IMG/VR virus record: IMGVR_UViG_3300047300_000455
Span: 1 to 29,314 of that record
Length of the DNA stretch: 29,314 bases
Strand: one strand, 5' to 3'
Source: a virus
The notes under the pieces are model-generated. The model was given only the letters and a program-made list of their open reading frames with translations, was not told the DNA's origin and made no database searches. The position numbers and the translations under genes were made by a program. The stretch's first letter is position 1. Every line of letters starts with the position of its first letter. Shown here piece by piece: positions 2,871 to 26,760 of the stretch.

Positions 2871-3229
2871 GCTTTGAAGCATTCTGGGCCGCATGGCCTA
2901 AGTCAATACGCAAAGGTGGCAAATCAGTCTGTTTGGCACGCTGGAAGAAGGGTCTGTACGATGGCTGTGCAGACCAGATCGTCAAGCATGTCGAATGGAT
3001 GAAAACCACAGATCAGTGGCGAAAAGACAACGGGGCTTTTATCCCTGCTCCACTGGTCTATCTCAACCAGCAACGGTGGGACGGCGCAGAGATTCCTGAG
3101 ACATTCATGAAGCCTGCTGCCCAAAACATCGACCCTGCTTTGTTGAAAATACAACAGGATCGCCAGAAAGCAGTGCCCATGTCTGATGAAATCAGAAAAA
3201 AATTGATGGAACTGCGAAAAAGTTGTTGA
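2867..3229 (+). CDS. O-like phage replication protein (C-terminal-type domain)
   Basis: The product is 120 residues. It begins MSFEAFWAAWPKSIRKGGK, then LARWKKGL, and later FIPAPLVYLNQQRWDG. The pattern of F-x-x-F-W-x-x-W-P near the N-terminus and a IP-x-P-x-x-YLN-x-x-RW motif mid-protein is typical of the C-terminal part of phage O / DnaT-like primosome proteins, which bring the host helicase to the phage origin. The N-terminal origin-binding domain of full-length O proteins is absent here; the preceding separate HTH protein may supply DNA binding. It starts within the upstream stop codon (ATGA). The protein ends in a basic helix (EIRKKLMELRKSC). Confidence 0.7.
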   Translation: MSFEAFWAAWPKSIRKGGKSVCLARWKKGLYDGCADQIVKHVEWMKTTDQWRKDNGAFIPAPLVYLNQQRWDGAEIPETFMKPAAQNIDPALLKIQQDRQKAVPMSDEIRKKLMELRKSC

Positions 3230-3256
3230 CAAGGACGGTGACGGTTGAAGTAGAAT
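3226..3256 (+). promoter_or_regulatory. Promoter-like sequence before candidate small RNA
   Basis: TTGACA (3226-3231), a perfect -35 hexamer, overlaps the stop codon of the replication gene. TAGAAT (3251-3256), five of six matches to the -10 consensus, follows after a 19-base spacer, longer than the ideal 17. Transcription would begin near 3263 and run into the hairpin and U-run ending at 3365. Confidence 0.45.
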
Positions 3257-3262
3257 TCAATC

Positions 3263-3366
3263 GTTGCCGTGGAAAGCGACAAAAATTGAGGCCTCTTACA
3301 CATGCTCTCGCCCTTGGTTTAAATCGAAGGGTTTCCACCGAGGGCAGTTGTAAGGGGCCTTTTTTA
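3263..3366 (+). ncRNA. Candidate small structured RNA
   Basis: No credible gene lies here. A transcript from the promoter-like site at 3226-3256 would first form a short stem (TCGTT 3261-3265 with AGCGA 3275-3279, if the start permits). It would then form a long rod: a 12-bp outer stem (3289-3300 with 3349-3360, one G-U) and a 9-bp inner stem (3310-3318 with 3337-3345), separated by an asymmetric internal loop, ending in a run of six T. It could be simply the terminator of the upstream operon; the promoter-like sequence is what suggests an independent RNA of about 100 nt. Confidence 0.4.
3289..3365 (+). terminator. Long-hairpin Rho-independent terminator
   Basis: AGGCCTCTTACA (3289-3300) pairs with TGTAAGGGGCCT (3349-3360), 12 pairs with one G-U, and T residues run from 3360 to 3365. 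An additional GC-rich inner stem (3310-3318 with 3337-3345) makes the hairpin much longer than usual. It would end transcription of the replication-gene operon or of the small RNA before the HNH element. Confidence 0.65.
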
Positions 3367-3395
3367 TTGTCTCAAGCATTGAAAGTAGCCTACCC

Positions 3396-3645
3396 ATGAG
3401 AGTAATCATCCGGCACTCGGACACTATGCGGACCGTCGGTGGTAGCGTCTTAAACAACCCTGTAACACGAGCAAGCCAGAGCAGGGAGGGTGGGCTAAGG
3501 ATAGAGCCTGGTGGTGGCCTTAAACGGCTATTAAGTCTGTCCAGTGCGAAGCGATGACATGGCTCCGAAGAGGGTTTTGTACTTCGTAAAGCATAGCGAA
3601 CTGTATCTTGGGTACGGTAAGGCTGTGCTTTGCTCCAACATTCAC
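3396..3645 (+). ncRNA. Candidate HEARO / omega-RNA-like structured RNA
   Basis: About 245 bases without a gene sit directly in front of an HNH gene and show many helices. These are CACT plus CGG (3414-3420) with CCG plus GGTG (3433-3441); CCCTG (3458-3462) with CAGGG (3482-3486); AGCC with GGCT near 3474-3496; CTTAA with TTAAG near 3519-3535; CGAAG with CTTCG near 3566-3586. There are also a 10-bp stem 3588-3597 with 3622-3631, and inside it a 6-bp stem 3600-3605 with 3613-3618. HEARO RNAs are known structured RNAs of this size located upstream of HNH/IsrB genes and acting as guide RNAs. ATGA at 3396-3399 matches the reported NTGA site preference. The identification is from architecture and remembered features; no covariance search was done. 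Confidence 0.55.
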
Positions 3646-3661
3646 CAAAGAGGGTATTGTT

Positions 3662-4009
3662 ATGAAGCAGATAGAGAAGTACAGAAGATCAACAATGAAA
3701 AGAAGAGCAAACGAGTCAATGAAAGGCTTGTCAGACAATGAGATAGCAGAACAAATAAAAAAAGCCACGACTGACTTTTTAAAGACCGAAGAATGGTTTT
3801 TGTTGAAAGCTCAGACAATTGCAAAGTATGGATGCACTTGCATGAGATGCAAAAAAAAGATTTCTTGTTGGATGGACATCAATGTTGATCACATCAAGCC
3901 AAGAAAACTTTTCCCGACCTTGGCAAACGATCCAAACAATTTGCAAATTTTGTGCGGGGCTTGCAACAAAGCAAAAGGCAACAAGCATGACACTGATTAC
4001 CGACCCTAG
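3662..4009 (+). CDS. HNH endonuclease next to the structured RNA
   Basis: The product is 115 residues. The HNH core lies at residues 58-108: C60 and C63 of the first zinc knuckle, D76-H77 (VDHIKP) as the catalytic pair, N92-N93, and C98 and C101 (ILCGAC) of the second knuckle. The N-terminal 45 residues are basic and helical. No RuvC domain, bridge helix or PLMP motif of IscB/IsrB is seen, so it is either a minimal HNH-only partner of the upstream RNA or an ordinary homing HNH. AGAGGG stands eight bases before the ATG at 3662; the open frame extends to a TTG at 3608, inside the RNA helices, which argues against that start. Confidence 0.8.
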   Translation: MKQIEKYRRSTMKRRANESMKGLSDNEIAEQIKKATTDFLKTEEWFLLKAQTIAKYGCTCMRCKKKISCWMDINVDHIKPRKLFPTLANDPNNLQILCGACNKAKGNKHDTDYRP

Positions 4010-4030
4010 GTAATACTATGGAGAAATGAA

Positions 4031-4264
4031 ATGAATAGAGAAGACATTATCCGCATGGCGCGGGAGGCAGGAGCAAGAGCGCAGCAAAACAAAAACTGCG
4101 ATGTGGAGTACCTGTTCAGTGTTGAGCAGATTGAACGGTTGCTTGCTGCCGAGCGTGAGGCGTGTGCGAAGGTGTGCGAGGAACGTATTGACTTCTGGCA
4201 GCGTGATGATGGGAGGCGTTACGAAGATGAGTACTGCGCTGATGCCATCCGAGCAAGGGGATAA
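4031..4264 (+). CDS. Hypothetical early protein, paralogue A
   Basis: The product is 77 residues, beginning MNREDIIRMAREAG and containing the motif EREACAKVCEE and a terminal AIRARG. This AAEREAC-x-x-VCE ... IRARG layout is widespread in phage accessory proteins of unknown function. It is helical and soluble, with paired cysteines that might bind a metal. GGAG lies eight bases before the ATG. The following gene is its paralogue, sharing the start, the cysteine motif and the end, so the pair arose by tandem duplication. Confidence 0.75.
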   Translation: MNREDIIRMAREAGARAQQNKNCDVEYLFSVEQIERLLAAEREACAKVCEERIDFWQRDDGRRYEDEYCADAIRARG

Positions 4265-4266
4265 GC

Positions 4267-4500
4267 ATGAACAGAGAAGAAATCATTGCAATAGCCCGTC
4301 AACACACCGTTGGTGGTTTGGAGTTTGATTGGGATGGGCTTGTCACGTTCTTCAACGAGGCCTACGCCGCTGGCGCTGCTGCCGAGCGTGAGGCTTGCAT
4401 TCAGGTATGCGAAGACAATGCAGACGATTACAGTGAAGGAGAGTGGGATTCTGCTTGCATTAGCTGTGCAGATCACATCCGTGCAAGGAGGCAGGCATGA
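4267..4500 (+). CDS. Hypothetical early protein, paralogue B
   Basis: The product is 77 residues, the same length as its upstream neighbour, and shares MNREEIIAIAR at the start, AAEREACIQVCED in the middle and HIRARRQA at the end. The middle differs, with WDGLVTFFNEAYAAG replacing the neighbour's sensor-like segment. It starts two bases after the neighbour's stop and overlaps the next gene by four bases (ATGA). Function unknown; the cysteine spacing is kept in both copies, suggesting it matters. Confidence 0.75.
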   Translation: MNREEIIAIARQHTVGGLEFDWDGLVTFFNEAYAAGAAAEREACIQVCEDNADDYSEGEWDSACISCADHIRARRQA

Positions 4501-25759: not shown

Positions 25760-26266
25760 TCACTTGGTCTGTACCATTGGATTATACGGAATAGGAATTT
25801 TCCCGCTAGGGTGGCAGACAAAATCACTGTAGTATTCATTTACGATGGCATAAAACTTGATTTTGTCGGCTTTATCTTGCTTGATCAACTCCCAAGGGCG
25901 GTTGTTAAACCACTTGGAGCTAATCTCATGGGCAAAACATTTTGGCAAGTTCATCATGTGAGCCGTACCAGCAAAGAACGGGTTGTCAGTACCGTGTTCT
26001 TTGTAAAACTCGCGTAAGTTTTTACACTCCTGACGAATTGCCTCTACGTTAGACTGCTCGTACTGAACATAGCGATTGCCGTCTTGAGCGCCAATCTTGT
26101 ACTTCATATTGCCAGTGTCAAAGGTCTGCGACCAAGTGCCTGACTTTACTTCGTTGAAAAGCTTGTCGTTTCGGCGAAACACGCCATCCACGCCTGCCTC
26201 AAGAATCCCATCTGTGTAGTAGTCTTCTTTCAGTTGTGCTTCTTCATTGTTAGCGTTCAATCCCAT
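25760..26266 (-). CDS. Conserved protein downstream of the capsid gene
   Basis: The product is 168 residues with KLFNEVKSGTWSQTFDTGNM, many aromatic and acidic residues, two cysteines flanking a helix (QECKNLREFYKE) and a C-terminal YYSDFVCHPSGKIPIPYNPM. No known fold is recognised. Such genes between capsid and adaptor often encode head-completion or decoration proteins, but nothing here proves that. Its ATG lies inside the end of the HNH gene (10-base overlap), so the HNH gene probably inserted directly in front of it. Confidence 0.6.
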   Translation of the reverse strand: MGLNANNEEAQLKEDYYTDGILEAGVDGVFRRNDKLFNEVKSGTWSQTFDTGNMKYKIGAQDGNRYVQYEQSNVEAIRQECKNLREFYKEHGTDNPFFAGTAHMMNLPKCFAHEISSKWFNNRPWELIKQDKADKIKFYAIVNEYYSDFVCHPSGKIPIPYNPMVQTK

Positions 26267-26760
26267 ACATTGCCTTTGCGTTTATTTTCAATCTCAGTAA
26301 GAATTTGAAGATTAAAGTGATTGTGCAATCCGCACACATTTTTTCCCACCAAGGGAACAATGTGATCAACGTGGTACTTCACGCCGGGATTCATCGCCTC
26401 AAGCTCCTTCGCTTTCTTATAAAACGATCTTACATTTTCTTGGCCCCAACCAGTTGTTGCCAACAATTCTTTTGCTCTGCGTTTTGCATCTTTTTCGATA
26501 AAAACAGCTTTGTTCAGATTGTAATACTTGCGCCCATATTCGCGGCGCTTTTCAATCATTTTTACAGAATTGAAATATGCCGCAACTTTTTCTGGATTTT
26601 TTTCAGACCATTGTTTTGTGTGATTTCGCTGACATTCAGAACAATTACCCGTGGCAGTCCAGCGTTTAGCTACATGACCTTGCTTACAAAAAAGACCCGT
26701 GAAATAGGCTTTTGAACCTGAATCACGGGCCTCTTGTCGAGTTTTTGGTAATCCATACAT
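26257..26760 (-). CDS. HNH endonuclease within the late operon
   Basis: The product is 167 residues. A zinc finger (C25, H29, C40 and C43 in FCKQGHVAKR and GNCSECQ) and a basic helical linker precede the nuclease core: KYHVDHIVPLVGKNVCGLHN with D132-H133 and H146, then NLQILTEIENKRKGN. That VDHIVPL-x-G ... CGLHxxxNLQxL signature is typical of phage HNH homing nucleases. It stands between the capsid gene and its usual partner gene. AGGAG precedes the ATG and lies at the foot of a terminator-like hairpin, so expression from the strong capsid transcript may be damped. Confidence 0.88.
   Translation of the reverse strand: MYGLPKTRQEARDSGSKAYFTGLFCKQGHVAKRWTATGNCSECQRNHTKQWSEKNPEKVAAYFNSVKMIEKRREYGRKYYNLNKAVFIEKDAKRRAKELLATTGWGQENVRSFYKKAKELEAMNPGVKYHVDHIVPLVGKNVCGLHNHFNLQILTEIENKRKGNVWD

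Follow-up and report, generated by a model that had tools for sequence, protein, structure and literature searches.

A previously undescribed structured RNA cassette in phages that carries an exact copy of its own 3' end, and the HNH endonuclease gene found behind it

The window, a 29.3-kb IMG/VR virus record, carries at 3226-4009 a cassette of two structured RNAs followed by the gene for a small HNH endonuclease (Table 1). Promoter-like elements, weak in the window, overlap the end of the upstream replication gene; relatives have TTGACA..TATAAT in the equivalent position, ahead of an RNA that we call RNA1. RNA1 is followed by a second structured RNA, RNA2a, and then by the HNH gene. Carriers of the cassette are many uncultivated phages, mostly from freshwater, and its compact, strongly folded RNA holds an exact 5- to 8-letter copy of its own end, termed X for the internal and X' for the terminal copy. 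A sequence-only reading of this locus had taken the 115-aa HNH-only ORF and the structured RNA directly ahead of it for a HEARO/omega-RNA element; both components are present, and that reading had overlooked RNA1 and the exact direct repeat.

Table 1. Features of the cassette and HNH gene, in window coordinates
Feature	Position	Strand	Basis or remark
Promoter-like elements, -35 TTGACA (3226-3231) and -10 TAGAAT (3251-3256), spacing 19	3226..3256	+	sequence; weak in window
RNA1 type A	3262..3365	+	nhmmer E 1e-21 in window
RNA2a, structured RNA	3420..3655	+	alignment, pair counts, covariance model
RNA2a helix P1	3420-3426/3443-3449	+	
RNA2a helix P2	3458-3462/3482-3486	+	
RNA2a helix P3	3488-3490/3507-3509	+	
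RNA2a helix P4	3499-3505/3536-3542	+	crosses P3
RNA2a long-range pairing, P2 loop with 3' UUGCUC	3469-3474/3630-3635	+	
RNA2a helix P6, 10-bp stem AAAGCATAGC/GCTGTGCTTT	3588-3597/3622-3631	+	encloses 6-bp stem
X, internal copy of variable direct repeat, AAGAGGGT	3568..3575	+	directly after GGCTCCG
X', terminal copy of repeat, AAGAGGGT	3648..3655	+	directly after TTCACCA; element 3' boundary
115-aa HNH endonuclease gene	3662..4009	+	PF01844; zinc ribbon CxxC/CxxC

The noncoding stretch with its 10-bp stem around a 6-bp stem had been recognized from the letters of the window, and its structure is upheld by 37 non-redundant relatives. Folding energy by itself does not set RNA2a apart (z -1.12, matched by 30 of 200 shuffles). 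Across the 37 relatives, 84.4% of cells are paired in the structure, which was assigned by hand, compared with 36-44% when it is slid along the alignment; double-changed cells number 164, against 58 when shuffled, and the covariation score is 0.276, against 0.103. One P3 pair occurs as CG, GC, AU, UA and GU; the long-range pairing varies by G-U only, and the weaker fit of P6/P7 is explained by the poor alignment of that region. This comparative evidence is decisive and confirms the predicted structure as real, its helices, including two pseudoknotted pairings (P3 with P4, and the P2 loop with the 3' UUGCUC), being backed by compensatory changes. The ATGA that the sequence-only reading placed at the left end does exist at 3396-3399 but is not the boundary of the RNA, which proper runs from about 3420 to 3655.

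A search with a 22-nt core pattern placed relatives of RNA2a in at least 120 IMG/VR stretches, and related HNH genes, retrieved by protein, came from 16 loci, at several of which the RNA upstream is obviously related too. The RNA2a covariance model, R1, matches 3422-3658 of the window at 189 bits, the window copy being among the model's own sequences. No blastn match was found in isolate phages or plasmids, the relatives coming from uncultivated viruses, and 300 Burkholderiales genomes yielded one 2-mismatch match to the 22-nt pattern, comparable to reversed-pattern controls. The cassette RNA is a real, previously undescribed kind of phage RNA, which adds to the known repertoire a widespread and richly structured unit absent from Rfam.

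At the 5' end of RNA1 is a hairpin; its loop, GTGGAAA (3269-3275), forms a pseudoknot with TTTCCAC (3332-3338). RNA1 ends in an intrinsic terminator made of GGCCTCTTACA (3290-3300), TGTAAGGGGCC (3349-3359) and a T-run (3360-3365). It was located by nhmmer at 92 loci, and the loop-loop complement is perfect in all 47 distinct copies, in 27 different sequences; judged from these copies, RNA1 is likewise conserved with compensatory changes. Other phages substitute different RNA1 types, each with a terminator at its end, and with types assigned by simple patterns a T-run precedes RNA2a in 76 of 82 cases. The gene preceding RNA1 at L201, L202, L121 and L107 has a terminator whose loop contains the -35 box of the RNA1 promoter.

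The two copies of the repeat obey a strict rule. In 73 of 73 distinct RNA2a, X and X' are the same at five core positions, save for one cell (offset-1 group, last position); the three neighboring positions agree in 89-93% (offset-0 group), and agreement drops to background level just outside. The mean longest stretch common to X and X' is 7.75 nt, versus 4.2 nt for mismatched loci, and mutual information within RNA2a singles out X with X'; at one further locus, L023, they differ by one base. The flanks differ, X following CTCCG and X' following CACCA. Neither a positional scan nor mutual information revealed a consistent complementary partner for X within RNA1 or RNA2, and a P4-immunity-like or riboswitch-like switch working through such a complement was rejected on that ground. 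Additional copies and complements of X elsewhere in the loci numbered 21 and 16, where 27 and 18 were expected. We know of no named RNA with a rule of this type; identity of X and X', with nothing outside, is a sharp sequence constraint that any mechanism has to account for. At L122 and L014 a third, longer near-copy of X (AGAGCATCGATAAAGG versus AGAGCATCGTTAAAGC) occurs about 30-40 nt behind X' or after the HNH gene; it is one case and may be chance.

The rule extends to other RNAs. In classes b and d, X equals X' in 14 of 14 readable pairs. Profile searches link neither class to RNA2a, and covariance-model comparison gave no more than a weak 3'-module match (E about 0.5). Class b is the Rfam family RF02932, Betaproteobacteria-1 RNA, matched by all 11 class b loci scanned; the motif was reportedly described in a 2017 paper. 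Its phage members (L008, L035, L043, L045, L048, L050, L052, L062, L065, L091 and L096) are directly followed by genes of the same HNH subfamily, and wherever their 3' module is readable it has, as in RNA2a, the arrangement GGCTCC-X ... TTCACCA-X'. They differ in that the RF02932 model has no match in the window at E<=10 and the RNA2a model has no significant match in class b. Because the Rfam model stops before X, the repeat and the HNH link fall outside it, and this orphan sRNA family gains a phage setting and a gene partner. Of 300 Burkholderiales genomes, 6 also contained RF02932 matches (4 above the cut-off; L385-L392), three of these matches in one genome at different loci, and X' seems less well kept in these copies. 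Structured classes 2b and 2c follow RNA1 at the same sites (L230:1150-1640, L252, L330:2040-2480 and, downstream of a replication gene, L304/L305).

The HNH protein matches PF01844 (E 4e-11, 43 bits) and no other family above the Pfam cut-off, in line with the earlier description of it as lacking RuvC and PLMP parts. Its HNH motif is intact, the relatives share an invariant DHIKPRK..N..C..CNKAKGNK that holds the DH, the N and the C-x2-C pairs, and among solved structures an ordinary phage HNH, PDB 5h0m, is its nearest relative. A hairpin had been noted at 3996-4014, at the HNH stop; it is there, but because it has no T-run and overlaps the codons of the conserved TDYR end it looks incidental.

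How often RNA and gene are found together depends on where one starts. When loci are sampled by RNA, the HNH subfamily accompanies 7 of 72 RNA2a, always 0-15 nt behind the RNA. When 59 non-redundant HNH relatives are sampled by similarity to the window's HNH, 39 have an RNA2 (class a, b or d) immediately ahead of them, a recurring link. Most phage records with an HNH-less RNA2a encode no such HNH elsewhere, although records may be incomplete, and because most RNA2a phages are without HNH, RNA2a must function independently of it. On the HNH tree RNA class needs 9 changes, versus 31 in shuffles, which argues that the pairing is old and was switched a few times.

Pairs of related loci show the gene coming and going. 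With a constant RNA, presence and absence of a 338-bp HNH insert are clean exactly behind X' (L026 versus L202), and the sequences downstream of the site are identical at 369 of 398 positions in that pair and at 208 of 223 in L014 versus L122. Both pairs therefore display, between homologous flanks, the presence or absence at one site by which a homing endonuclease gene is recognized. At L169 and L170 an HNH of another type stands behind X'. By these comparisons, the HNH gene is mobile separately from the RNA cassette.

The cassette itself also appears to move. Neighbors of RNA2a include capsid, terminase and replication genes, and one replication gene has it either before or after; all 23 phage records have exactly one RNA2a copy, and 77 of 80 related capsid-gene loci are without the cassette. 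Alignment of related phages for empty sites, proposed in the sequence-only reading, did yield both ends: L273 is an empty site relative to L107, with flanks 94% and 86% identical, and the insert extends from just behind the -10 box, where RNA1 transcription starts, to X'. The exact ends rest mainly on this pair, with which the more distant L283 agrees. X' is therefore part of the element, and the idea that X is a copy of the target flank was rejected because X' lies inside the insert. In L160 versus L330, promoter and replication gene are alike and the RNA1/RNA2 pair is swapped, the break falling at the transcription start. A conserved leader (AAGGC..ACCG..GACCCTTACCGCAGTGG..GGCCCTGA..AGGCTTACCGGCGCGAGAACCC) about 200 nt ahead of the capsid start in L224-L303 looks like another structured RNA, and L304:2477-2550 and L305:2450-2523 hold sub-threshold matches to the int-alpA RNA (RF02996) with a T-run at the end, just before the replication gene.

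With slightly better than even confidence, we favor the view that the cassette is a portable phage RNA unit and that a homing-type passenger HNH nuclease has repeatedly settled at its 3' end. The promoter would make RNA1, pseudoknotted and stopping at its own terminator, and read-through would yield RNA2a, a compact multi-pseudoknot RNA ending at X'. The RNA unit would have its own function, as an operon leader in cis or a noncoding RNA in trans, that requires identical X and X', and the small free-standing HNH would spread by lodging exactly behind X', its gene being transcribed from the cassette with X' as its putative ribosome-binding site. Sequence comparison establishes the RNA structures, the identity of X and X', the modular build, where the insertions lie, and that cassette and HNH gene can each be present or absent; the promoter, the terminator and the leader position suggest regulation in cis or a trans-acting RNA, and homing would proceed by HNH cleavage of HNH-free alleles. 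The nuclease resembles free-standing phage HNH homing endonucleases (phrog_144, PF01844, 5h0m) in family, size and one-site presence or absence, and differs in that its subfamily is found linked to the 3' ends of three structured RNA classes. Because different RNA classes carry one HNH subfamily, it is hard to see one conserved DNA site that homing would recognize, and since no complementary partner was found, a regulatory role alone leaves X = X' unexplained. If X = X' is not a matter of RNA-DNA recognition, the cassette would be a phage leader RNA of a new type and a place where homing nucleases repeatedly insert.

A competing explanation is RNA-guided homing. RNA2 would bind the HNH protein, X would serve as a guide of 5-8 nt pairing with the other DNA strand at X', TTCACCA would be the adjacent motif, the cut would fall just behind X', and standalone RNA2 would be substrates or act in trans. 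The position of most HNH relatives behind three RNA2 classes, X = X' in classes a, b and d with different guide and target flanks, the insertion point exactly behind X' and an RNA that itself holds no complement of X all speak for it. Yet X = X' also holds in the roughly 90% of RNA2a without a local HNH, most of them in records without HNH altogether; the protein, at only 115 aa, shows no recognizable domain for RNA binding, a guide of 5-8 nt would be short, and X' persists in HNH+ alleles. We consider guided homing unlikely, and are just as doubtful that three RNA classes without detectable sequence similarity converged on, or kept, X = X' and one nuclease subfamily as a minimal RNA-guided system; were X = X' to reflect RNA-DNA recognition, it would be a new, very small programmable one. 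The HEARO/omega-RNA identity is another matter. As in systems with IscB/IsrB, a structured RNA precedes an HNH-domain gene and standalone RNA copies occur, but RF02033 has no match at E<=10 in the window, nor at E<=5 or E<=2 in relatives, there is no 5' guide, the protein lacks RuvC/PLMP, and what varies is a matched repeat at the 3' end of the RNA itself. The ends do not fit either, the L107/L273 junctions lying at the RNA1 transcription start and X' and not at the NTGA expected of HEARO. HEARO membership is not supported on any point examined (RF02033, RuvC/PLMP, NTGA end) and is already contradicted, its probability being practically nil; nor is the RNA a HEARO relic beside a homing enzyme, as it is intact, covarying and widespread without HNH.

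Self-mobility of RNA2, as a ribozyme-like or intron-like element whose 3' boundary is marked by X and which moves jointly with its cargo, would suit the span of the L107 insert, the many unrelated sites and the compact, pseudoknotted fold. Group I introns with homing endonucleases, and the lariat-capping ribozyme GIR1, likewise place a compact pseudoknotted RNA just ahead of the nuclease start codon. We find this distinctly improbable, as no Rfam ribozyme or intron matches at E<=10 in the window or is found in relatives and there is one copy per phage; splicing would be unneeded, because the cassette sits between genes. Group I intron, GIR1 and tmRNA were rejected as identities for want of an Rfam match (for group I and GIR1, none even at E<=10 in the window). 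Control of translation in cis, with X as a decoy for a ribosome-binding site X' and hence a switch for the gene behind it, draws on the Shine-Dalgarno distance between X' and the start codon in HNH+ loci, the window included. Many X', however, have no nearby start codon and are not Shine-Dalgarno-like (CGGCAG, GAGTAAT), yet match X, and a decoy needs no exact identity, which makes this quite a poor prospect. Type III toxin-antitoxin systems have an RNA with a terminator ahead of a nuclease gene, a layout that the cassette resembles and in which RNA2 would neutralize a toxic HNH. In such a pair the RNA always accompanies its toxin gene; here most RNA2a are without HNH, RNA and HNH come and go independently, and the chance that this is the answer is very slim.

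Elsewhere in the window, 4031-4264 and 4267-4500 are consecutive, similar 77-aa ORFs, apparently tandem paralogues, without a family match, and a weak second HNH-like match (E 4.6e-4) lies at 26266-26496 on the minus strand.
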